Assembly: GCA_004298675.1 (NCBI GenBank)
Contig: SCRI01000040.1
Location: forward strand, 1 to 12,119
DNA length: 12,119 nucleotides
Reading direction: 5' to 3'
DNA from: a bacterium
Lineage (GTDB): Bacteria; Vulcanimicrobiota; Vulcanimicrobiia; Vulcanimicrobiales; SCRA01
Shown here: positions 1,137-12,119 of the stretch, one piece after another
Position numbering within the stretch: position 1 is the first letter of the stretch
How the letters are laid out: every line of letters begins with the position of its first letter
Notes under the pieces: generated by a model
The model's database searches: none
Seen by the model: only the letters and a program-made list of their open reading frames with translations
Told to the model about the DNA's origin: nothing
Program-made: the position numbers and the translations under genes

Positions 1137-2081
1137 ATGATGCGCGTCGCCGTCCTGATGGGTGGGCCCTCGTCGGAGCGAGAGGTCTCCATCGCCACCG
1201 GTACCGGAGTGCTCCAAGCGCTGCGGTCGCTGGGGTATCAGGCCGAATCGTTCGATTTCGACGCGCGCGTGGTGGAGGCGCTGCGTGCCTACGCACCCGA
1301 CGTGGTCTTCAATGCGCTGCACGGCCTGGGCGGAGAAGACGGCCACGCGCAGGCGATCCTGGAGTGGATGGGCCTGCCTTACACCGGCAGCGGCGTTCAG
1401 GGCTGCGCGATGTCGATGGACAAGCACATCACCAAGAAGCTCTTGGCGGCCGAGGGCCTGCCCACGCCGGCTTGGGACGTCTTCGATCTGCGCGGCGGCA
1501 CGCTGCCGCTGTTGCCCGGGCTCAATCTTCCGCTGGTGGTGAAGCCCGTGGACGAGGGCTCGAGCGTGGGCGTCGCCGTCGTGCGCACACACGATCAGTG
1601 GAAAGAGGCGATGATCGCGTTCTCCGAACGCTACGCGCGCGTGCTGGTGGAAGAGTATGTGGCGGGTCGCGAGTTCAGCGTGCCGGTGCTCTTCGACGAG
1701 GTGTTGCCCGTGGTGGAGATCGTCGCGGAGGACACGTTCTACACGTACGATGCGAAGTACAAGCCGGGCGGTTCGCACCACGTAATCCCCGCGCCGCTGA
1801 GCGAGGAGTTGACGGCGCGCCTGAAGATGCTGGCACTCTCCACCCACCGGCTGTTGGGTCTGCGCGACTACTCGCGCACCGACATCCTGCTCTCGCGCGA
1901 GGGGCGGCCGTACATTCTGGAGACCAACACGCTCCCCGGCCTGACGCCTACCTCCATCCTGCCCGACGCCGCGCGCTCCGTGGGCATCGCCTACGAGACA
2001 TTAGTCGATCGCTTGGTGCACGCGGCACTCGACCGCGGGCGCGAAGGGCTCGGCGCCGCCGACTCCGCCGGCCGACAATAG
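1137..2081 (+). CDS. ddl: D-alanine--D-alanine ligase
   Basis: Ddl is an ATP-grasp ligase joining two D-alanines into the dipeptide later added by MurF to the peptidoglycan stem. From the start chosen here the product is 314 residues, close to the roughly 306 of E. coli DdlB. Visible motifs are VAVLMGGPSSEREVS (about 4-18, with the conserved glutamate), the ATP-grasp segment VVKPVDEGSSVGV (134-146), YDAKY (204-208), RTDIL (247-251) and LETNTLPGLTPTSILP (261-276), holding the metal-binding E and N and the late serine. The tyrosine of the AKY element favours D-Ala-D-Ala over D-Ala-D-Lac ligation (E. coli numbering from memory). Starts at 1122, 1137 and 1140 share the frame; 1137 is preferred because GGAAAG at 1124-1129 lies 7 bases before it. 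It begins 17 bases after murB. Confidence 0.95.
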   Translation: MMRVAVLMGGPSSEREVSIATGTGVLQALRSLGYQAESFDFDARVVEALRAYAPDVVFNALHGLGGEDGHAQAILEWMGLPYTGSGVQGCAMSMDKHITKKLLAAEGLPTPAWDVFDLRGGTLPLLPGLNLPLVVKPVDEGSSVGVAVVRTHDQWKEAMIAFSERYARVLVEEYVAGREFSVPVLFDEVLPVVEIVAEDTFYTYDAKYKPGGSHHVIPAPLSEELTARLKMLALSTHRLLGLRDYSRTDILLSREGRPYILETNTLPGLTPTSILPDAARSVGIAYETLVDRLVHAALDRGREGLGAADSAGRQ

Positions 2082-2156
2082 TCGCAGCCGCTTGCGCCAG
2101 CACTGCCCCCCGGAGGAGCGGGAGGCGGCCGGGCCTAAGTCTCCGCGCGCGCTTTT

Positions 2157-2162
2157 AGGAGG
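2157..2162 (+). promoter_or_regulatory. Ribosome binding site of citrate synthase
   Basis: A full AGGAGG lies 11 bases before the ATG at 2174. It is the strongest Shine-Dalgarno in the window and fixes the start of the citrate synthase gene. The 92-base gap behind ddl shows no convincing -35/-10 pair and no T-tailed hairpin. Confidence 0.75.
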
Positions 2163-2173
2163 TCGTTTCCGTC

Positions 2174-3325
2174 ATGTCTCAAGCTTTGATTGCCCCGGCC
2201 GGGCTCGAGGGCGTCGTCGTTGCATCTACGAAACTCTCGAACGTCGAGGGCAAGATCGGTCGCTTGACGTACCGCGGGTACGACATCCACGACATCGCCC
2301 CCAACGCTCACTTCGAAGAGATCGTCTACCTGTTCCACTTCGGTGAGTTGCCGACGCGCGCCCAGCTTGACGACATCCGCCGCAAACTTGCCTCCCAGCG
2401 CGAGCTGCCGGCGGCGGTGACGGCGATGATGAAGTCGCTGCCCAAGGATTCCTGGCCGATGGACGTGCTGCGCACGTCCATTTCCATGCTCTCGCAGTTC
2501 GAGCCGCACAATCCCGACGGCGCACACACCTCCGACGTCGACGCGGCGCTCAAGCTGATCGCGAAGACGCCCACGATCGTCGCGGCATGGGACCGCATCC
2601 GGCGCGGTCTCGAGCCGGTGGCGCCGCGTGCCGACTTTGATGCGGCGGAGAACTTCCTGTGGATGCGCACGGGTGAGAAGCCGCACGAGGCGGCCGTGGC
2701 GGCGCTGGACATGTACCTCGTCTTGCACTGCGATCACTCGTTCAACGCCTCCACCTTTGCCGCGCGCTGTACGGCGTCCACGCGCGCCGACATCTACGCG
2801 GCGGCTACCACCGCCGTGGCGGCGCTGGAAGGAAATCTCCACGGTGGAGCGCCCAGCGAAGTGATGCACGCGTTGCAGGAGATCGGCACCAAGGAGCGCG
2901 TGGAGCCGTACGTGCGCGACATCGTCCATAAGGGCGGGCGCATCATGGGGATCGGCCACCGCGAGTACAAGGTGCGCGATCCACGCGCTCAGCATCTGGA
3001 GGAGAAGGCCAAGGCGCTGAGCATCGCAGCCGGCGACAGCCACTGGTACGATCTGGCCGTGGCGCTGGAGCAGACCGCGGTGCGTGTGCTGCAAGAGGAG
3101 AAGCCCGACCGCGCGCTCTACGCCAACGTCGACTTCTACTCGGCGCCGATGCTCAACGCGCTGGGCATCCCCAGCGACGAGTTCACCTGCATGTTCGCTT
3201 GCGGACGCATCGTGGGCTGGACGGCACACATCCTCGAGCAGTTGGCTCACAATCGCATCTTCCGCCCGCAGGCGGATTACATCGGTCCTACCGGCCTACG
3301 CTGGATTCCCATCGACCAGCGCTAG
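2174..3325 (+). CDS. gltA: Citrate synthase (short type II-like form)
   Basis: This enzyme condenses oxaloacetate with acetyl-CoA to citrate, the entry step of the TCA cycle. The 383-residue product carries the family signatures: LTYRGYDI near the N-terminus (31-38), HCDHSFNASTF (185-195), NLHGGAP with a catalytic histidine (about H223), GIGHREYKVRDPRA with the second histidine (about H262), NVDFYSAP with the catalytic aspartate (about D320), and the closing RPQADYIGP (364-372). The length matches the short dimeric citrate synthases of about 370-380 residues rather than the roughly 430-residue E. coli enzyme. Two signature positions vary (C in HCDH, E in GHREYK), both outside the catalytic triad. 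The start follows a perfect AGGAGG. 2-Methylcitrate synthase belongs to the same family and cannot be excluded, but no prpB- or prpD-like gene is nearby. Confidence 0.93.
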   Translation: MSQALIAPAGLEGVVVASTKLSNVEGKIGRLTYRGYDIHDIAPNAHFEEIVYLFHFGELPTRAQLDDIRRKLASQRELPAAVTAMMKSLPKDSWPMDVLRTSISMLSQFEPHNPDGAHTSDVDAALKLIAKTPTIVAAWDRIRRGLEPVAPRADFDAAENFLWMRTGEKPHEAAVAALDMYLVLHCDHSFNASTFAARCTASTRADIYAAATTAVAALEGNLHGGAPSEVMHALQEIGTKERVEPYVRDIVHKGGRIMGIGHREYKVRDPRAQHLEEKAKALSIAAGDSHWYDLAVALEQTAVRVLQEEKPDRALYANVDFYSAPMLNALGIPSDEFTCMFACGRIVGWTAHILEQLAHNRIFRPQADYIGPTGLRWIPIDQR

Positions 3326-3362
3326 CGGGACGGGCGCGCCGGCGTCGTGAATCGTTCCGCGG

Positions 3363-3386
3363 GGCGCACCGCTTCGATCGTGCGCC
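3363..3386. repeat. 7-bp inverted repeat before the transporter gene
   Basis: GGCGCAC (3363-3369) and GTGCGCC (3380-3386) are perfect inverted repeats separated by 10 bases. They sit in the 79-base gap between citrate synthase and the MFS transporter, ending 3 bases before the transporter's AGGAG. There is no T tract, so this is not a typical intrinsic terminator. It may be an operator for a dimeric regulator or a 5' leader hairpin next to the ribosome binding site. At this GC content a chance origin is possible. Confidence 0.45.
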
Positions 3387-3389
3387 GTT

Positions 3390-3394
3390 AGGAG
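3390..3394 (+). promoter_or_regulatory. Ribosome binding site of the MFS transporter
   Basis: AGGAG at 3390-3394 lies 10 bases before a GTG at 3405. It decides the start: the first plausible membrane helix begins shortly after this GTG, and no better start exists in the frame. Confidence 0.65.
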
Positions 3395-3404
3395 TTGGAA
3401 CGAC

Positions 3405-4703
3405 GTGGATCAGGCGCTTGCGAGGACGACGCTGGCGAAGGTCACCAGCCGGCTCATCCCCTTCATGTTCATTCTCTACGTTGCGAACTTCCTCGACCGT
3501 GTGAACGTCGGGGTCGCGACGCTGACGATGAGCAAAGACCTCAACCTCAGCGCCGCGGCTTTCGGCCTGGGCGCGGGCATCTTCTTCATCGGCTACTTCC
3601 TCTTCGAAGTACCGAGCAACCTCATCCTCGACAAAGTCGGCGCGCGCCTCTGGATCGCGCGCATCATGATCTCGTGGGGCATCATCTCGTCGGCAACGAT
3701 GTTCGTGCACAGCGCGGGGATGTTCTACACGCTACGCTTCCTGTTGGGCGTGGCCGAAGCCGGCTTCTTCGCCGGCATGATCCTCTACCTCACGTACTGG
3801 TTTCCCGCTGCGGAGCGCGCCAAGGCGGTGGCCGGCTTCATGACGGCCGTGGCGGTGGCGGGTGTGATCGGCAATCCCATCTCCGGCCTGCTCCTGAAGC
3901 TGGAAGGCGTGGCCGGACTCCACGGCTGGCAGTGGCTTTTTCTGCTGGAGGGCATCCCTTCGATCATCCTCGGCTTCGTCGTGATCGGATATCTCACCGA
4001 CAAGCCGGAGCAGGCGACGTGGCTGACGGAGGCGGAGCGCGGCTGGCTGATCGGGCATCTCAAGAGCGAGCGTGACGAGAAAGAGCGCCGCGAGCGGTTC
4101 AGCCTGATGCAGGCGCTGGTCAACGGGCGCGTGTGGCTGCTGGCGCTGATCTATCTGGGCATCGTCATCGGCCTCTACGGCTTCGTGATTTGGCTGCCCA
4201 CCATCATCAAAGGCATGCTGGCCGCGGGCACCAGCAATTCTGCCGTGGCCTACCTCTCGGCCATCCCGTTCGTCTTCGCCGCCATCGCGATGGTCATCGT
4301 GGGGCGCAGTTCCGACAGCAGCCGCGAGCGCCGCTGGCACGTGGCCGGACCCGCGTTTGTGGGGGCGCTGGGGCTGGTCGTCTCCGTCTACCTGCACTCG
4401 GCGGTGGGCGCGTTCATCGGCCTGATCTTCGGCGCCATCGGCATCTACGCGGCGCTGGGGCCCTTCTGGACGTTTGCTCCGGCGTTCCTCACCGGGACGG
4501 CCGCCGCGGGCGGTATCGCGCTGATCAACTCGATCGGGAACCTCGGCGGCTTCTTGGGTCCGTACGTCGTCGGTGCCGTCAAGACCCGGACCGGCAGCTT
4601 TACCGATGCGTTGGGCTTCTTGATCGCCGCGCTCATAGTGGCGGGGGTGCTGGCGCTCTTGATGCCGCACCGCGAGCCGGGCACGGCGCACGGCGGGGAG
4701 TGA
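3405..4703 (+). CDS. MFS transporter, anion:cation symporter-like
   Basis: This is a 432-residue inner-membrane protein with about twelve hydrophobic segments in two halves, separated by a charged cytoplasmic loop (about 197-235, rich in E, R and K). Family-typical stretches are NFLDRVNVG (28-36), GIFFIGYFLFEVPSNLI (58-74), DKVGAR (76-81), RFLLGVAEAGFFAG (111-124), YWFP (131-134) and GWQWLFLLEGIPS (174-186). These resemble the anion:cation symporter (ACS) branch of the major facilitator superfamily, which moves organic acids such as tartrate, phthalate, glucarate or hexuronates with protons. The substrate cannot be read from sequence. It starts with GTG after AGGAG. It sits alone between citrate synthase and hisB; a carboxylate substrate would suit the citrate synthase neighbour, but that is inference. 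Confidence 0.9.
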   Translation: MDQALARTTLAKVTSRLIPFMFILYVANFLDRVNVGVATLTMSKDLNLSAAAFGLGAGIFFIGYFLFEVPSNLILDKVGARLWIARIMISWGIISSATMFVHSAGMFYTLRFLLGVAEAGFFAGMILYLTYWFPAAERAKAVAGFMTAVAVAGVIGNPISGLLLKLEGVAGLHGWQWLFLLEGIPSIILGFVVIGYLTDKPEQATWLTEAERGWLIGHLKSERDEKERRERFSLMQALVNGRVWLLALIYLGIVIGLYGFVIWLPTIIKGMLAAGTSNSAVAYLSAIPFVFAAIAMVIVGRSSDSSRERRWHVAGPAFVGALGLVVSVYLHSAVGAFIGLIFGAIGIYAALGPFWTFAPAFLTGTAAAGGIALINSIGNLGGFLGPYVVGAVKTRTGSFTDALGFLIAALIVAGVLALLMPHREPGTAHGGE

Positions 4704-4728
4704 TGCGCTTCCCGCCGAAGCCCGGCGC

Positions 4729-5325
4729 ATGCTTGCACCAGAGTCTACCCGGCGTGCCCAGATCGAGCGACAGACCAAGGAGACGCAGATCTCCCTGGAT
4801 TTCGACCTCGATGGCGGCGAGATCGAGATCGCGACCGGCGTCGCGTTCTTCGACCACATGCTCGATGCGCTGGCCAAGCATTCCGGCTGCGGCCTGCGGT
4901 TGCGCGCCCACGGGGACGGGATGGACCACCACCACCTGGTCGAGGACGTCGGCATCGCGCTGGGCAAGGCCGTCGCGCAAGCGTTAGGGGAGAAGCGCGG
5001 GATCGAGCGTTTCGGCGATGCCACCGTGCCCCTCGACGACGCGCTAGTTTCCGCCGCGGTGGACCTCTCGGGGCGTAACTATCTCAGCTTCGACATCAAG
5101 TTCAAAGCCGAGAACCTCGGCGACCTCAAGACGGAGCTGGTCGGCGAGTTTTTCCGCGCGCTGACCGACAACGGCAAGTTCAATCTGCATCTCGTGCGCC
5201 TCTCCGGCAAGCAGTCACACCATCTCTGCGAGGCCTCGTTCAAGGCTTTCGCACGCGCCTTCCGTGCCGCCAAGCGGCGCACGGGCACGGCGGAGATCCC
5301 GTCGACCAAAGGCGTGCTCGAGTAA
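4729..5325 (+). CDS. hisB: Imidazoleglycerol-phosphate dehydratase
   Basis: HisB dehydrates imidazole-glycerol phosphate to imidazole-acetol phosphate in histidine synthesis, using a di-manganese centre. The 198-residue product is the monofunctional dehydratase, without the histidinol-phosphatase domain fused to it in E. coli. Metal-binding motifs are FDHMLDALAKHSG (41-53), DHHHLVEDVG (66-75) and QSHHLCEASFKAFARAF (162-178); all histidines and glutamates of the two HHxxE-type repeats are present. The ATG at 4729 is the first in frame and gives the expected N-terminal RxAxIERxTKETQI pattern. No clear Shine-Dalgarno precedes it. The gene starts 25 bases after the transporter stop, and hisH follows 7 bases after its end, so it heads the histidine cluster seen here. 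Confidence 0.96.
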   Translation: MLAPESTRRAQIERQTKETQISLDFDLDGGEIEIATGVAFFDHMLDALAKHSGCGLRLRAHGDGMDHHHLVEDVGIALGKAVAQALGEKRGIERFGDATVPLDDALVSAAVDLSGRNYLSFDIKFKAENLGDLKTELVGEFFRALTDNGKFNLHLVRLSGKQSHHLCEASFKAFARAFRAAKRRTGTAEIPSTKGVLE

Positions 5326-5332
5326 CGCGGCG

Positions 5333-5947
5333 GTGATCGCGGTCGTAGATTTCGGAGGCGGCAACCTCGGCTCGCTCACGGGGGCGTTGCAGCGTTTCGG
5401 CGTGGGCTTCGCGCTCACCGACGAGCCCGCGGCCGTGGACGTGGCCGATGCGGTGATTCTCCCCGGCGACGGCGCCTTCGGCGCGACGATGGAGGCGCTG
5501 CGCGAGCGCGGCCTCGACGATGCACTGCGCCGCGCGCTCGCCGGCGGCCGCCCTTTCCTGGGCATCTGCGTGGGGATGCAGCTGCTCTTCGAAGGCAGCG
5601 ACGAATACGGCGAGCACGCCGGCTTCGGTATCTTTCCCGGGGTCGTCACGCGGCTGCAGGACGCGCCGCGCGTGCCGCACATGGGCTGGGACACGTTGGA
5701 AGTACGCAAGCCGCACCCGTGCATCGCGGGGGTAGCGAGCGGCGATTACGTCTACTTCCTGCACTCCTATGTCGCGCCGGTCGTCGACGATACCGTCGCC
5801 GCGTGCACGTACGGACGGCCGTTCTCCGCCGTGGTGGCGCGCGCCAGCGTGGTGGGCACGCAGTTCCACCCCGAGAAGAGCCAGACAACGGGCCTGCGTA
5901 TCCTCGCCAATTTTCTCGCCGGCATCGATGCGCACGCGCACGCGTGA
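5333..5947 (+). CDS. hisH: Imidazole glycerol phosphate synthase, glutamine amidotransferase subunit
   Basis: HisH hydrolyses glutamine and channels ammonia to HisF, which makes imidazole-glycerol phosphate and AICAR. The 204-residue product is a class I glutamine amidotransferase: VDFGGGNLGSL (5-15), LPGDGAF (43-49), the nucleophile elbow FLGICVGMQLLF with C79, VPHMGWD (114-120), YFLHSYV (141-147), and TQFHPEKSQ (176-184) with H179 and E181 completing the triad. An in-frame ATG exists at 5264, but it lies inside hisB and would add a basic extension foreign to the family; GTG 5333, 7 bases after the hisB stop, gives the expected start. The partner gene hisF is not in the window. The 3' end overlaps the next small membrane-protein gene by 20 bases. 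Confidence 0.95.
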   Translation: MIAVVDFGGGNLGSLTGALQRFGVGFALTDEPAAVDVADAVILPGDGAFGATMEALRERGLDDALRRALAGGRPFLGICVGMQLLFEGSDEYGEHAGFGIFPGVVTRLQDAPRVPHMGWDTLEVRKPHPCIAGVASGDYVYFLHSYVAPVVDDTVAACTYGRPFSAVVARASVVGTQFHPEKSQTTGLRILANFLAGIDAHAHA

Positions 5948-6380
5948 TCTGCGCGCGCTCGCCGGCTTGGTGCTGCCGTCGCCACAGCGCGCCGCGGGCG
6001 TCTTCGGGATCGCGTTGCTCTACGAGCTGTTGCTGATGATCGCTCGCGCCGTTGCGGGTTGGTCCCCGCTGACGCTGGGCACGGGACCCGTGCTGCTGGT
6101 GCTGCACGCGGCGGTGGCCGCCGCCGCGATCGAGCTGCTGCTGCGCGGTTTGCTGCAGGGCGCGCTGCCGTTCATGGGCGTAGGAGCCGCGCTCTCGTTG
6201 GTGTTTCCCGCCGCCGTCGAGTATCTCGCCGGATCCGCCCGCGGCGACATGCTCTGGGAGGTTGCCTTCGGCATCGGCTTCGTCTTCGCGCGCGCCGCCA
6301 GCGGATCGGTCTTCCCGTGCATGGCGCTGCGGTTCGTGCAGTACCTGATCGTCCCGGCCTTCGCCGTGGTGCACCTGTGA
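5928..6380 (+). CDS. Small membrane protein, degenerate CPBP (CAAX-protease-like) relative
   Basis: This is a 150-residue protein with four or five hydrophobic helices (about 21-44, 51-70, 78-100, 109-124, 128-149). The stretch AAIELLLRGLLQG (66-78) resembles motif 1 (EExxxR) of the CPBP family of intramembrane glutamic proteases but keeps only the second E (E69) and R73; the first E is isoleucine. The later GSVFPCMALRFVQY (126-139) aligns with the GS..P...HxxxN segment, with H and N replaced by R and Y, and the FxxxH motif lacks its histidine. If the relationship is real, the protein is probably not a protease; it could be a scaffold or chaperone-like membrane factor. The start overlaps hisH by 20 bases and the end overlaps hisA by 4, so it is co-translated with histidine enzymes. 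Its role is unknown. The CPBP link is moderately supported; the CDS itself is well supported by its coupling and hydrophobic pattern. Confidence 0.68.
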   Translation: MRTRTRDLRALAGLVLPSPQRAAGVFGIALLYELLLMIARAVAGWSPLTLGTGPVLLVLHAAVAAAAIELLLRGLLQGALPFMGVGAALSLVFPAAVEYLAGSARGDMLWEVAFGIGFVFARAASGSVFPCMALRFVQYLIVPAFAVVHL

Positions 6381-7096
6381 TCGTCATCCCCGCCATCGAC
6401 TTGCGCGGCGGACGCTGCGTGCGCCTGGTGCAGGGCGAGAAGGCGCGCACCACCGTCTACGGTGACGACCCCGTCGAGCGCGCACGCGCCTTCGTGGCCG
6501 CCGGCGCGCGGCGTATCCATGTCGTCGATCTCGACGGCGCCTTTGGCGACGGCTCCAACCTCGACGTGCTGCGCGCGATCGCGCAGGCCGTGGAAGTGCC
6601 GGTACAGACCGGCGGCGGCGTGCGCACGAGCGCGGATGTGCGCGCGCGCTTGGCTGCCGGCGCGCACGACGTCATTCTCGGCACGGTCCTGGTGGAGCAG
6701 CCGGAGGAGGCGGCACGCATCGCGCGCGAGTTCGCGGGGCACATCAGCGCGGGCATCGACGCACGCGGTGACGAGGTGGCCGTGCGCGGCTGGGAACGCG
6801 GCGCCGGCGTGCGCGTGGAGACGATGTTGGAGCGTTTGGAGGCATGGGGCATCGAGCGCGTGATTGCCACACAGATCGAGCGTGACGGCACCGGGCGCGG
6901 CTACGACCTCGACTTCTACCGGCGCATCTGCGAGCGCGGCGTGCCGCGCGTGCAGGCTAGCGGTGGTGCCGGCAGCGTCGACGATCTGCGCGCGCTGCAG
7001 GCGCTGGAACTGCCCAATCTCGAGGGCGCGATCGTCGGCCGCGCCATCTACGAAGGGACGCTGGATCTAGCGCAGGCCGTCGCGGAGTTGAAGTAG
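6377..7096 (+). CDS. hisA: Phosphoribosylformimino-5-aminoimidazole carboxamide ribotide isomerase
   Basis: HisA performs the Amadori isomerisation of ProFAR to PRFAR, the HisF substrate. The 239-residue (beta/alpha)8 barrel shows IPAIDLRGGRCVRLVQG (4-20) with catalytic D8, HVVDLDGAF (48-56), the first phosphate loop TGGGVR (78-83), GIDARG (126-131) with catalytic D128, ATQIERDGT (164-172), the second phosphate loop SGGAGS (195-200) and GRAIYEG (221-227). The residue after the conserved threonine is Q where many HisA proteins have D; the threonine is retained. The GTG start at 6377 overlaps the preceding stop (GTGA). A single-gene PriA (HisA/TrpF dual enzyme) cannot be excluded from motifs alone. 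No hisF follows; the next 244 bases are non-coding. Confidence 0.95.
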   Translation: MIVIPAIDLRGGRCVRLVQGEKARTTVYGDDPVERARAFVAAGARRIHVVDLDGAFGDGSNLDVLRAIAQAVEVPVQTGGGVRTSADVRARLAAGAHDVILGTVLVEQPEEAARIAREFAGHISAGIDARGDEVAVRGWERGAGVRVETMLERLEAWGIERVIATQIERDGTGRGYDLDFYRRICERGVPRVQASGGAGSVDDLRALQALELPNLEGAIVGRAIYEGTLDLAQAVAELK

Positions 7097-7107
7097 CCGG
7101 CCCGCCC

Positions 7108-7220
7108 CTAACCAAAAATGGGCAGACCCAGTCTGTCGGGCTACGAGTCGGCACAAGGCGCCCTGTCGGCCTTGGCGTCCCGCGGTGCTCAGCTCGTAGA
7201 CCCATGGCGCTTTTGGTTAG
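7108..7220. repeat. 113-bp nested inverted-repeat element
   Basis: The ends are perfect 10-bp inverted repeats, CTAACCAAAA (7108-7117) and TTTTGGTTAG (7211-7220). Pairing continues inward as ATGGG (7118-7122) with CCCAT (7201-7205), leaving GGCGC as a one-sided bulge. Inside are a hairpin CAGAC-CCA-GTCTG (7123-7135) and a second arm: CTACGAG (7141-7147) with CTCGTAG (7193-7199), GCA (7151-7153) with TGC (7186-7188), and CAAGGC (7154-7159) with GCCTTG (7169-7174). The result is a three-way junction with a long closing stem. It could be a structured RNA or leader, a MITE-like or integron-site relic, or a transposon end. I recognise no known family and no T-tail. No target-site duplication is obvious and there is no second copy in the window. 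Confidence 0.7.
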
Positions 7221-7232
7221 CAGGCCATAAGA

Positions 7233-7242
7233 CAACCGGTTG
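7233..7242. repeat. 10-bp palindrome upstream of the helicase gene
   Basis: CAACCGGTTG is a perfect 10-bp palindrome about 100 bases before the helicase start. It could be a binding site for a dimeric regulator; the short length leaves chance as a real alternative. Confidence 0.35.
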
Positions 7243-7299
7243 CTGTAAGGACTGCGGGATGCCGCCTAGAATCCCTCCAAGACCTTAATTTTCAAACCT

Positions 7300-7317
7300 C
7301 CCGCGGCAGCCTGCGGG
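7300..7317. repeat. Short GC hairpin before the helicase start
   Basis: CCCGC (7300-7304) pairs with GCGGG (7313-7317) around an 8-base loop, ending 23 bases before the ATG at 7341. There is no following T run, so it is not a typical terminator. In an mRNA it would sit just upstream of the weak ribosome binding site. Confidence 0.35.
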
Positions 7318-7340
7318 CTATCAAATTTGAGATTATCGTG

Positions 7341-10300
7341 ATGGAACAGCCAGGGGAACCCTCTTCGAGTCCCGGCACCACCGTATCGGCAGCTGTACTG
7401 CATCTTCGCGACACATGGGTCCGCCGCCTGATAGATCTCAGCCGAAACAATCGCCTGATCTATCACAGGGAGCTAAAGAACGGTACGTTCGCGCTGGGCG
7501 ATCTCCATGACAAATCCGTGGGGCGGCTCATAGCCGGTGCTTTGTGCCCAGTTGCGGATTTCCAGGCCAGTGAGCTGAGCGCAAAAGACCGTGCCAAGGT
7601 GCGTGAGATTCGCCTTCGCGCCAAAGCAAACGAGGAGGAACGTGGTCTCGCGACGCTATTTTGCGCGTTAGGCTTTGCGTCATGGCCGGCACCTGACGGT
7701 GGGCGTCCAGCAAACGCACCTATGTTTCTCCTCCCAGTCGGTATCGTCAATAATGAGCGTACTGGTGAGCTTGCGCTAAGAGCGTCCGGTGATCTCGCCG
7801 TCAACCAAGTCTTGTTGGAAAAAATCAACGACGAGCTCCATGTCCAAATCGACGCTGATGACGTAATTTTGGAGGATGAGGAGCCGGATCTCTTCGCTGC
7901 GTTTCGGACACTTTCCGAAATACTAGGCCGTATCGTCAGGGTAAGCGTTGCAACGACCTGCGTATTGAGTAATTTTGATTTCCAAAAAATGGCGATGGTG
8001 GAGGATCTCCGAAAGAACGGCGACCTATTGGCGGAGAATGATCTCGTATCAGCAATCTCTGGAGACGAAGCGGCTCGCAAAAGTATAGCGGAATCGCAAC
8101 GGCTAATCAGCCCGCTCGAGCTAGACAAGATTCCACCTGCTGACGAACTTTTCGTACTCGACGCAGACTCAAGTCAGCAGTGCGTGATTCATTCCTTCCT
8201 GCGTCATCCAGCGCATGGAGCAATCAAAGGACCTCCAGGAACTGGCAAGAGCCAGACGATTGCAAATCTCATTGCGGCTCTCATTGGGAACGGTCGCCGC
8301 GTCTTGTTCGTTGCCGAGAAGCGAGCTGCATTGGAGGTCGTCCAGAAGCGACTCGCCCAAGTTGGTCTTGGGCACCTGGTGCTTGATTTACACGGAGGTG
8401 ACGTTAAGCGCAGGACGATTTATGAAAGACTGCGTGTGAGCGACTCTGCCGCACGAAACTCTGCCGCCGTGAATGGGGAGCATTTAGATGATGTAATCTC
8501 CACGTTACGGACCCGGCTCAACGCCTACGCAGTTGCGGTCAATCTCGTGCGCGGGGTATGTGGGCATAGCGCATATGAGTTATTCTCTGCCCTCGCTCGT
8601 CTCCGCGATGTCAAGACGCGCACACGCTGGAAGGGGGGATTGGTAGGAGAGTTCACGGTAGATCGATACCGAGAAGCGCGTGATCTTGTAATGGAGATTA
8701 GTGACAGCCCGCAACTCTTCTTGCGCGAGCCCGATGTCCCGTGGAGCAGTGCGGATTTTGAGACGAATGAGCAGGCGGCCCACGCTCTCGTAGAGGTCGA
8801 CACCCTGCAGACGCTGTTGGAGACTCTTCAGGCCCAATGCACGTCGATCTTTCTGCGCGATGCTGAGCTCACGCCAAGAACCCTCTCGAGCATTAGGGAC
8901 GCCGTAGAACACTTGCAAGTGTTTAGCAGGTCTATCGTAGCATTCGGGCCAGAAATCTTCGATGACAACGTAAGCCACCTTGCGTCCATTCTGCAGCCTG
9001 CTAAACGAGGCATGCTGTACCATCTGTTCGCTTTGGCTGGTTCTGAGTACCGAGCAGTCTGGCGTAACATGAAGAGGCGCTGTCGCGCCGACGTGAGGAA
9101 GCCCGGGGACGTTGTGGAATTGCTCTGCTTGCTAGCGGAGCAGCCCGCCTCGTGGCGTGCGCCGTCCTTAGCCAGAGCGGCGTCCGCCGAGTCTGTGTCG
9201 CTACTCGTAGAGACGTACGAAAGCGTGCAGTCGACCGTTGCGCGTCTTGCGGTAATGCTCGGACATCAACTGTGTGATGAGGTGGGTGCGCTGAGCGACC
9301 AATTGATAAAGCTACAGTGGGCAAGTCGGAGCGCATACTTGTCGGCTTCGCTGCGTACCAAGGAAAGGCGTCTGCGTGAATTAGGTGCGGCGGCGTTTCT
9401 TCGCGAACTCTCGGGTGACAAGCCTAACGCCAGCGATTGGGTGCGCATGTTCGAGAAGGCTTGGTTTCAGTCGCAGCTGGACCACCTCTTCGCAACAGAT
9501 CCTGTACTGTCCACCTTTAAGGGCGCTACGCACCGTGTGTATGTCGATAAGTTCAGGCGCTTGGATAGCGCACGGTTGGCGCAATCAGCCGTACGGGTTC
9601 GGCGTGCCGCGGCTGAGAACTATATCAATGCACTGAACGCTAATCGGCTGCAGTATACGACCGTAAGGCTTGAGCTTGAAAAGAAATCAAGACATATGCC
9701 GGTACGTAAACTCGTGGCTTCTGCGCCTGACGTACTCATGGCAATAACGCCTTGCATCATGGCTAGCCCGCTGTCTGTCAGTCAGCTGCTCCCTGCGCAG
9801 GTTCTCTTCGACGTCGTCATTTTTGATGAGGCAAGCCAGGTGCTGCCGGAGGATGCGGTGCCGGCAATCATCCGTGGCAAGCACACCGTCGTCGCGGGAG
9901 ATCAAAGACAGTTGCCGCCCACCACATTTTTCGCGCTGACCGATCGCGATGAGGAGGAAGAGGAATCCGATTCCGCGGCTTCGGGTATGGAGAGCATTCT
10001 TGACTTAATGAGCGGGTTCGTCGAGCCGCGCCCGTTAGAATGGCATTACCGCTCCCGAGACGAGACTTTAATCGGGTTTAGCAATCATTATGTCTACGAA
10101 GATCGACTATTGACGTTTCCCGGGGTCGGCGGGCGCGATCCCGCGGTGCAGCACGTATATGTGACTCCGGTACTCGCAGATGGTCAGGAGCTGAGTTCCT
10201 CCGCAGAGGTGAAGCGCGTAGTCGAGTTGATTATAGAGCACGCTGAGACACGTCCGCGAGAATCGCTTGGCGTCATTGCCATGGGCATTAAGCACGCGCG

Positions 10301-11312
10301 GCGGATTGATGAATATCTACAAAATGAGAGAAGGCTACGTCCGGATCTCGACGACTTCTTCTCCGAAAATAGGCTAGAGAGTTTCTTCGTTAAGAATCTC
10401 GAGCGCGTTCAGGGCGATGAGCGGGACGCTATCATCCTATCGATTGGTTACGGCCCAGATCGGTCTGGAAAAATGGTCTACCGCTTTGGGCCCTTACTGT
10501 TTAGCGGCGGAGAGCGCCGGCTAAATGTTGCGGTGACACGTGCAAAGAATCGGATCACCGTTGTGTCGTCGTTCAGGCATGCAGAGCTGGATCCCCAACG
10601 GTTACGTTCCCTCGGATCGAATCTACTTGGACGGTACATCCAATACGCAGAGTCGAATGGCACGAATTTAGGCCGCGAGGGTCCAGTAATGGGCGCTGAA
10701 ATCAATGCGTTTGAAGCGGACATTGCAGAGGCACTGAAGGCAGAAGGCCTCGATCTTGTTCCACAATACGGAGTGTCGAATTATAGGATTGATTTCGCGG
10801 TTAGACATCCTGCCAAACCAGGGCGCTTCCTATTAGCAGTAGAATGCGATGGTGCGAGCTATCATGGAAGTCCGACGGCTCGCGATCGAGATCGCCTTAG
10901 GCAGCAACATCTTGAGGCGCTTGGGTGGCGCTTTCATCGGATATGGTCGACCGACTGGTTTCATAATCGCGCTGAAGAGATCGACCGGGCGAAGGCTGCT
11001 TATGCGGCGGCGCTAGCCGCTGATTCGCTGGTACCATCGCTCAGAGAGCCTAGCGTCCCTGAGCCAAAGCAGGCGATCCAGCAGGCCGCGATCCGCGGAG
11101 CTCGCCCAAAAATTCAGCGGCGCCCCGCGGTTTCGGACTACAGTGAGACGGAGCTTCACAAGATCATAGGGTGGATCAATAGCGATGGCCTGCTCCGCAC
11201 GGACCAGGAGATCATTCAAGAGGCCGCTCGTCAAATGGGATTTAGGCGCATGGGCAAGCGGATCGTCGAGACTCTTCAGCTCGCCATCGACTCACTGCGG
11301 CGTAGCAGTTAA
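7341..11312 (+). CDS. DUF4011/SF1 helicase/Vsr-like nuclease fusion, putative defence protein
   Basis: This 1323-residue multidomain protein begins with a DUF4011-like motif, LIDLSRNNRLI (30-40). Superfamily I helicase motifs follow: Walker A GPPGTGKS (297-304), Walker B DEAS (829-832), GDQRQLPP (853-860), an acidic loop (868-877), WHYRSR (901-906), QGDERD (1024-1029) and NVAVTRAK (1062-1069). About 500 residues separate Walker A and B. A PD-(D/E)XK Vsr/MTES_1575-type nuclease has D1151 and E1168-x-D1170, then GASYH; a DUF3320-like helical tail covers 1267-1323. ATP-driven translocation and DNA cleavage are the expected activities. From memory, a DUF4011-helicase-Vsr protein was reported as a single-gene anti-phage system (Hhe); assignment here is inference. 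Start: ATG 7341, or GTG 7338 in the same frame; the Shine-Dalgarno is weak. GC is near 50%, well below neighbours, suggesting transfer. All catalytic motifs look intact and there is no frameshift. Confidence 0.92.
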   Translation: MEQPGEPSSSPGTTVSAAVLHLRDTWVRRLIDLSRNNRLIYHRELKNGTFALGDLHDKSVGRLIAGALCPVADFQASELSAKDRAKVREIRLRAKANEEERGLATLFCALGFASWPAPDGGRPANAPMFLLPVGIVNNERTGELALRASGDLAVNQVLLEKINDELHVQIDADDVILEDEEPDLFAAFRTLSEILGRIVRVSVATTCVLSNFDFQKMAMVEDLRKNGDLLAENDLVSAISGDEAARKSIAESQRLISPLELDKIPPADELFVLDADSSQQCVIHSFLRHPAHGAIKGPPGTGKSQTIANLIAALIGNGRRVLFVAEKRAALEVVQKRLAQVGLGHLVLDLHGGDVKRRTIYERLRVSDSAARNSAAVNGEHLDDVISTLRTRLNAYAVAVNLVRGVCGHSAYELFSALARLRDVKTRTRWKGGLVGEFTVDRYREARDLVMEISDSPQLFLREPDVPWSSADFETNEQAAHALVEVDTLQTLLETLQAQCTSIFLRDAELTPRTLSSIRDAVEHLQVFSRSIVAFGPEIFDDNVSHLASILQPAKRGMLYHLFALAGSEYRAVWRNMKRRCRADVRKPGDVVELLCLLAEQPASWRAPSLARAASAESVSLLVETYESVQSTVARLAVMLGHQLCDEVGALSDQLIKLQWASRSAYLSASLRTKERRLRELGAAAFLRELSGDKPNASDWVRMFEKAWFQSQLDHLFATDPVLSTFKGATHRVYVDKFRRLDSARLAQSAVRVRRAAAENYINALNANRLQYTTVRLELEKKSRHMPVRKLVASAPDVLMAITPCIMASPLSVSQLLPAQVLFDVVIFDEASQVLPEDAVPAIIRGKHTVVAGDQRQLPPTTFFALTDRDEEEEESDSAASGMESILDLMSGFVEPRPLEWHYRSRDETLIGFSNHYVYEDRLLTFPGVGGRDPAVQHVYVTPVLADGQELSSSAEVKRVVELIIEHAETRPRESLGVIAMGIKHARRIDEYLQNERRLRPDLDDFFSENRLESFFVKNLERVQGDERDAIILSIGYGPDRSGKMVYRFGPLLFSGGERRLNVAVTRAKNRITVVSSFRHAELDPQRLRSLGSNLLGRYIQYAESNGTNLGREGPVMGAEINAFEADIAEALKAEGLDLVPQYGVSNYRIDFAVRHPAKPGRFLLAVECDGASYHGSPTARDRDRLRQQHLEALGWRFHRIWSTDWFHNRAEEIDRAKAAYAAALAADSLVPSLREPSVPEPKQAIQQAAIRGARPKIQRRPAVSDYSETELHKIIGWINSDGLLRTDQEIIQEAARQMGFRRMGKRIVETLQLAIDSLRRSS

Positions 11313-12000
11313 CCTAGACTTTGCCTTCAGCGCGGGCGTTGGCGTGGCCGCGGGGCGGCGCGAGACGATGGGGCGGTGCCGCTTCTCAGGTGCCGCCGTT
11401 CGCGCGGGTGCAGGCGTTGGAGTTGGCGTGGCCGCCGGCGTTGGCGTGGAGGCCGGCGCTGGAGCTGGAATCGCGAAGATCAGCGGAGCGGCGGCGCCGT
11501 TACCCAGCGGAACGGCGAGCGCGAACGGCTGCGAGGTGCCGCCAGGCCCGTAGAAGCGCCCGCTGATTCGCAGCTGCGGCGCGGCGGCGATGAGCGGGAT
11601 GCTTGCCACGCCGTAGTAGCGCCCGGGGACGCCCGGCCAGGGCAGCAGCGGATACTCGCCGGGCATGCCCGGGATGGTGAAGTAGCCCCAGCCGTTGGGG
11701 ATGCTCGCGACGCCGAAGAAGAGGCCGTTGCCGGCTTGCGCGTACTGCGGCAGGAAGGGATAGATGCCGCTGCGCGAGTAGTCCGGATACGGCGTTGGAC
11801 TCGGCAACGGCGGAACGACCGGCGTGGGAGCGTAGGGCGGCTGCTCGGGATAAGGCGTGACGGCGGTGGAGGCGACGCTACCGCTGGCATCGCTTGCGGC
11901 TGCCTGGTGAATCGTCACGGCGCGCGTGGCCGCGAGATAGACCACCGTCGCGCCGAGCGCTTGCGCCACGAAACGCAGCGGCACGAACGTGTGCCCGTAG
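11292..12000 (-). pseudogene. Copper amine oxidase N-terminal-like domain protein, 5' end lost to an insertion sequence
   Basis: The frame reads from 12000 down to TGA at 11294-11292, about 235 residues. It opens with YGHTFVPLRFVAQALGATVVY...TRAVTI, the C-terminal part of a copper amine oxidase N-terminal-like domain, common in cell-surface proteins and usually not enzymatic. A proline-rich linker follows, then a glycine/aromatic region containing GVASIP twice (11697-11714 and 11595-11612), and a P/T/A-rich low-complexity tail ending in basic residues. The start, any signal peptide and the first half of the domain are missing: at about 12000 the sequence changes to what looks like an IS3-type end. 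The frame stays open into that element but the residues are not domain-like. The 3' end overlaps the helicase gene by 21 bases. It is probably non-functional unless a downstream GTG (11984) is used. A sequence-diverged intact copy elsewhere cannot be assessed. Confidence 0.7.
11335..11475. repeat. Imperfect tandem repeats encoding the P/T/A-rich tail
   Basis: On the + strand, variants of GGCGTTGGCGTGG recur: exact 13-bp copies at 11335-11347 and 11435-11447, with degenerate copies such as GGCGTTGGAGTTGGCGTGG from 11411 between them. On the coding (minus) strand these give repeated P-T-P-A units. This is the low-complexity tail of the disrupted gene rather than an independent element; such repeats expand and contract by slippage. 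Confidence 0.55.
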
Positions 12001-12022
12001 TGAAGTGACCCCCTCGGGGACT

Positions 12023-12052
12023 GGACACCTCTGAAGCGAAGTGAAGGTGTCC
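12023..12052. repeat. 8-bp inverted repeat spanning the IS ORF ribosome binding site
   Basis: GGACACCT (12023-12030) and AGGTGTCC (12045-12052) are perfect inverted repeats with a 14-base loop. The right arm covers the AAGG that would serve as Shine-Dalgarno for the ATG at 12054. In a transcript reading in from outside, the hairpin would hide this site, a known way for insertion sequences such as IS10 and IS50 to limit transposase synthesis; applying that here is inference. Confidence 0.55.
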
Positions 12053-12053
12053 G

Positions 12054-12119
12054 ATGAAGAAACCCACTCCACCGGCCAGTCCGGCGAGCGAGCCCGAAGC
12101 GTTCGGGCGCTGGACCGCG
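12054..12119 (+). CDS. Probable IS3-family transposase OrfA, N-terminal fragment
   Basis: An ORF opens at ATG 12054 and runs off the window after 22 codons: MKK, then a P/S/A-rich stretch, then FGRWTA. In my recollection many IS3-type OrfA proteins of one subgroup have an R-W-(T/S)-A segment just before the helix-turn-helix that binds the terminal repeats; that domain would lie beyond the window. AAGG at 12044-12047 is a suitable ribosome binding site about 6 bases before the start. The identification rests mainly on position just inside a probable IS end, so confidence is moderate. Confidence 0.5.
   Translation, partial: MKKPTPPASPASEPEAFGRWTA

Follow-up and report, generated by a model that had tools for sequence, protein, structure and literature searches.

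A short-form helicase-nuclease of the PDC-S37/ProA/Hhe superfamily, encoded in a foreign-looking insertion beside hisA, as a probable anti-phage protein

A single gene located at positions 7341 to 11312 on the forward strand of the analyzed stretch of 12,119 nucleotides (contig SCRI01000040.1; hereafter, the window) encodes a protein in which a DUF4011 region, an SF1 helicase and a Vsr-like nuclease are fused in this order. We propose that this gene probably arrived by horizontal transfer and codes for a stand-alone helicase-nuclease directed against phages (or mobile DNA), which belongs to a short-form subclade of the PDC-S37/ProA/Hhe superfamily. The domain architecture, the intact catalytic residues, the nuclease fold, the insertion at a site which is empty in genomes of the same genus and the patchy distribution were all established from the sequence, and we infer from it that the protein acts in defense, that its substrate is DNA (not RNA) and that cutting is coupled to translocation.

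The open reading frame extends from an ATG at position 7341 without an internal stop and thus specifies the one intact protein of 1,323 amino acids which had been described in the initial annotation; an alternative GTG start at position 7338 would add one residue. Pfam profiles for DUF4011 (residues 79 to 161; E = 1.7e-13), AAA_11 (from residue 276; E = 3e-20), AAA_12 (residues 949 to 1077; E = 8.5e-11) and MTES_1575 (PF18741; residues 1124 to 1217; E = 6.4e-36; 122.8 bits against a cutoff of 38.2) were matched above their curated cutoffs, which upholds the earlier assignment of a DUF4011 region, SF1 helicase motifs and a Vsr/MTES-type nuclease as well as the placement of the motifs. The profile search that had been advised for these families together with DUF3320 accordingly recovered all but the last. 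The N-terminal DUF4011 domain is taken to span residues 29 to 161 (positions 7425 to 7823, +), of which residues 29 to 78, preceding the Pfam match, were assigned by alignment with the relative L059, whose own match begins at residue 29.

Motifs I, II, III, V and VI of a UPF1-like SF1 helicase are all present and conserved, and by sequence this part of the protein resembles SMUBP2, UPF1, SEN1 and DNA2. The motifs include the Walker A sequence GPPGTGKS (residues 297 to 304; positions 8229 to 8252, +), the Walker B sequence DEAS (residues 829 to 832; positions 9825 to 9836, +), GDQRQLPP (residues 853 to 860), WHYRS (residues 901 to 905), the motif V sequence QGDERD (residues 1024 to 1029; positions 10410 to 10427, +) and, following it, the motif VI sequence RRLNVAVTRA from residue 1059 (NVAVTRA from residue 1062). 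In an alignment of 14 sequences, the other members of which are 29 to 54% identical to the window protein, the Walker A residue K303, the Walker B residues D829 and E830 and the nuclease residues D1151, E1168 and D1170 are invariant.

The PD-(D/E)XK nuclease domain (residues 1124 to 1217; positions 10710 to 10991, +) carries the conserved residues D1151, E1168, D1170, H1175, D1184 and W1202, with ECDG at residues 1168 to 1171, and is predicted by structural modeling to adopt a Vsr-like fold. A nuclease fold, the absence of which the initial annotation had set beforehand as one point that would refute its reading, was found in the model of residues 1085 to 1323 (pLDDT 83.5), with I-Bth0305I, NGO0050 and Vsr as top matches; the catalytic domain of I-Bth0305I was matched at a Foldseek E value of 1.1e-3 (TM on target, 0.80), and VIA Z values were 12.7 for I-Bth0305I (3r3p), 12.1 for NGO0050 (3hrl) and 11.1 for Vsr (1cw0). 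Behind the nuclease, residues 1269 to 1322 or thereabouts (positions 11145 to 11306, +) are modeled as a three-helix tail, i.e., one small helical domain, at a place where longer relatives possess DUF3320 or tandem winged helices. The tail had been described as DUF3320-like, a claim which had to be abandoned, as Pfam DUF3320 (PF11784) gave no match in residues 1241 to 1323 even at an E value of ≤1; the relative L006 matched this profile at 9e-14, and phmmer aligned residues 1270 to 1317 with the ends of L006 to L008. For the DUF4011 region, the AlphaFold model of residues 1 to 290 (pLDDT 82.7) gave a best PDB match of only E = 0.16 and matched one viral prediction (an AAA domain protein; E = 2.3e-4; TMq, 0.40). 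These results do not establish a new fold for the region.

The gene resides in an inserted segment of approximately 4.2 kb (positions 7097 to 11320), which is absent at the same site in the same-genus genomes G002 and G003, where the 3′-terminal 17 bp of hisA lie within the convergent gene; the junctions are good to about 20 bp, their exact positions being blurred by sequence divergence. In a third genome of the genus, G001, the region behind hisA did not match the right flank of the window, and a copy of the helicase-nuclease gene was detected in none of the three. The GC content of the gene is 55.7%, versus 68.2% in the left flank and 71.6% in the right flank, as had been noted previously in general terms, while its GC3 is 0.59, versus 0.86 to 0.88 in its neighbors; these contrasts point to a foreign source. 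The gene was thus most likely acquired horizontally, a gain which is documented by the empty site in the same-genus genomes. No integrase, transposase, relaxase, second defense gene or modification gene was identified within the inserted segment, and a sigma-70 promoter scan returned 0 hits, with 1.9 expected by chance. A search for a target-site duplication turned up no more than the 5-bp sequence GTAGC close to each junction, which was rejected since chance could give it.

To the left of the insertion, Pfam identified hisB, hisH, a CAAX-protease-like open reading frame and hisA (positions 6377 to 7096, +). To the right lies the convergent Cu-amine-oxidase-N-like gene (positions 11292 to 11997, −), the 3′ end of which was changed by the insertion and the 5′ part of which was lost to an IS-like repeat at approximately position 12000; the initial annotation had therefore correctly placed the gene between his genes and an IS-disrupted gene. 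Contigs C42, C61 and C82 of this genome likewise end in the repeat (positions 12000 to 12119), a copy of 82% identity is present in contig C3 of G001, and the reading frame of the repeat, judged by eye, resembles the beginning of a transposase subunit. The open reading frame between hisH and hisA (positions 5769 to 6377) specifies a 203-residue membrane-type product whose Rce1/CAAX-protease-like match is weak (E = 0.0045, below the Pfam cutoff), and G002 and G003 carry a similar frame between the same two genes. The hisH frame itself (positions 5264 to 5944) opens at a GTG at position 5264, within hisB; as the start equivalent to that of G002 and G003 is a GTG at approximately position 5333, automatic annotation may overcall the N terminus. 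Between hisA and the inserted gene, nested inverted repeats (positions 7108 to 7227) were observed, with outer arms CTAACCAAAA and TTTTGGTTAG and inner arms CTACGAG/CTCGTAG; this stretch is present in a single copy in the genome and was not found near the genes of relatives. It was discounted as an RNA element, with no Rfam match and a folding z of −1.5 (17 of 200 shuffles were as good), and as an integron attC site, the core of which is RYYYAAC/GTTRRRY and is missed by the ends CCCTAAC and GTTAGCA.

With regard to function, the anatomy of the protein suggests that the DUF4011 region and the C-terminal tail would contact DNA, that the UPF1/SMUBP2-type SF1 motor would load on phage DNA that is single-stranded or contains ends, translocating with ATP, and that the fused Vsr-like domain would nick or cut the DNA fed to it by means of D1151, E1168 and D1170. 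Since a Vsr-like cutter follows the UPF1/SMUBP2/SEN1/DNA2-like motor in the same chain, translocation and cutting on DNA represents the simplest reading. A variant of this proposal, differing in the outcome for the cell, is abortive infection, whereby phage-triggered helicase activity would free the nuclease to act on host DNA also, as in the two-gene Hachiman system, whose helicase detects DNA damage and sets the nuclease free (PMC12278908). Because the inserted segment holds no modification gene, self-protection based on methylation is not evident, which would suit such an outcome; motor and nuclease are, however, joined here in one polypeptide, unlike in Hachiman, and we consider abortive infection possible rather than probable.

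Near-complete matches to the window protein were obtained in only G011, G047, G046 and G094 among 100 related genomes, a distribution which is patchy within both the order and the phylum. In a quick maximum-likelihood tree, for which the C-terminal halves of 45 proteins were used, the window protein paired with that of G011 (support, 98), and these two formed a clade with G047, G046 and L017 (support, 100), all five members being 1,323 to 1,405 residues in length. L061 (1,412 residues) and L146 (1,386 residues) are also short yet fall outside this clade, where the branching of the tree is not resolved, and short length is therefore not unique to it. L017, which is labeled as Chthonomonadaceae (Armatimonadota), was not met when 149 genomes belonging to the phylum of the window were searched, which suggests, without proving it, that the clade crosses phyla. 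That these five proteins constitute a separate defense type, which would be missing approximately 100 residues between the helicase halves and, likewise, the second C-terminal domain and would therefore sense DNA in a manner different from that of Hhe, ProA and the long PDC-S37 proteins, through a DUF4011 region of a fold so far lacking from the PDB, is regarded as doubtful. Patchiness is not a property of all DUF4011 proteins, as a large DUF4011 gene forms a core flank of the defense hotspot cDHS1 of Pseudomonas aeruginosa and is present in every isolate (PMC10250203).

The neighborhoods of relatives provide support for a defense role which is real but partial. In G021, a compact cluster (L062, positions 1452 to 9136 of G021:C5) comprises DarG, DarT, a CBASS cyclase, E1-E2 and JAB together with what is left of a related gene; this relic is frameshifted, with its nuclease end and tail in different frames, and lies on the opposite strand directly after the CBASS cyclase/E1-E2/JAB genes, with DarT-DarG about 5 kb away. 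Elsewhere, L010 and L019 adjoin type I restriction-modification genes, csm3 lies upstream of L017, cas1-cas2 are situated 3 kb downstream of L146, a relative on a cyanobacterial plasmid, and HEPN-associated and GIY-YIG proteins are encoded downstream of L144, which is annotated as Hhe. At several other loci, no defense neighbors were seen. Near the closest relative, an open reading frame of 798 residues (L059, positions 5162 to 7555 of G011:C1), which had no match in PADLOC and a weak one of AAA_16/STAND-like type, is possibly a further defense gene. A PADLOC scan of 104 open reading frames neighboring 15 relatives left most without a defense-family match, the matches being scattered and each family occurring in one or two members, so that, in this sample of the family, association with defense genes carries little weight as evidence; by eye, many of the listed neighbors look like ordinary genes. 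The initial description of the locus as a single-gene defense island thus holds insofar as one gene occupies a foreign-looking insertion, while "island" is too strong a term, because the insertion contains this gene alone and the defense neighbors of relatives are inconsistent.

These ordinary-looking surroundings, the sequence matches to SMUBP2, SEN1, UPF1 and DNA2, and the likeness of the nuclease model to Vsr, itself a mismatch-repair nuclease, would all be compatible with a chromosomal helicase-nuclease which acts in DNA repair or at replication forks (Dna2-like or Vsr-repair-like) and lacks any role in defense. Such a function is considered improbable, given the foreign-looking insertion, the lack of a detected copy in the three genomes of the genus, the patchy occurrence in the order and phylum, the association of a decayed relative with CBASS and DarTG, and the presence of relatives on plasmids and on IMG/VR contigs classed as viral. 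Those same plasmid and IMG/VR relatives, and the insertion of the segment at a defined site, could instead indicate a mobile-element gene serving competition between elements or the propagation of its own element, a reading which is equally improbable, as the gene stands alone in a segment devoid of integrase, transposase and relaxase genes and its relatives have many unrelated flanks.

Comparison with cataloged systems supports the preferred reading, that of a stand-alone anti-phage helicase-nuclease. Over all libraries searched, the best match was the PADLOC-DB candidate single-gene family PDC-S37 (PDLC05009; E = 5.4e-283), a value at which chance is no issue; both halves of the profile were matched in order (positions 94 to 548 and 763 to 1446 of 1550), a share of approximately 73%. 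The window protein is about 230 residues shorter than this profile, has 117 residues in place of the 214 profile positions between the matched halves and leaves the last 104 or so positions without a match. PDC-S37 is itself a candidate family, and validation is pending for most PDCs (PMC12988326); our literature search found neither a paper naming PDC-S37 nor a source paper for ProA. The ProA profile (NCBIfam NF058533) was matched at positions 458 to 983 and 1101 to 1765 with 906 bits, below the curated cutoff of 1500, some 450 of its N-terminal positions being missing from the window protein. Hhe (NCBIfam NF042953; "Gao Hhe" in DefenseFinder usage) shares the order DUF4011-helicase-Vsr-like nuclease, but membership is ruled out by a score of 653 bits against a curated cutoff of 2000 and by the tree, in which the annotated Vibrio tubiashii protein (L144; 1,915 residues) occupies a different branch (support, 98) that excludes the window protein. 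Of the antiviral family originally suggested, the defense-type stand-alone helicase-nuclease therefore stands, with PDC-S37 as the best match and ProA next, and the divergent Hhe does not.

More distant likenesses were also noted. The Mokosh proteins MkoA and MkoC possess related SF1 helicase segments (E = 1e-27 and 4e-21, respectively), to which the match, far weaker than that to PDC-S37, is confined. Giant proteins of the MTES_1575 type, organized as HEPN/transglutaminase-like/SF1 helicase/Vsr REase/two wHTH domains, share the core of helicase, nuclease and C-terminal DNA-binding region; the window protein is without their HEPN and transglutaminase domains and has one short tail rather than two wHTH domains. 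Such giants are predicted to act against invading DNA with no need of modification genes, and its recognition through the C-terminal wHTH domains has been proposed in the same HEPN-superfamily paper (PMC3710099). On the basis of these comparisons, the window protein is predicted to be a short form within the PDC-S37/ProA/Hhe superfamily, the anti-phage helicase-nucleases of which are either candidates or named systems. The group of candidates to which it belongs is already cataloged, so that it cleanly exemplifies a known kind and does not represent a new one. As a compact single-gene member of a widespread and mechanistically unexplained defense superfamily, the short form represents a convenient minimal protein for studying how, with no modification enzyme, phage DNA would be distinguished from host DNA by a motor fused to a Vsr-like nuclease.
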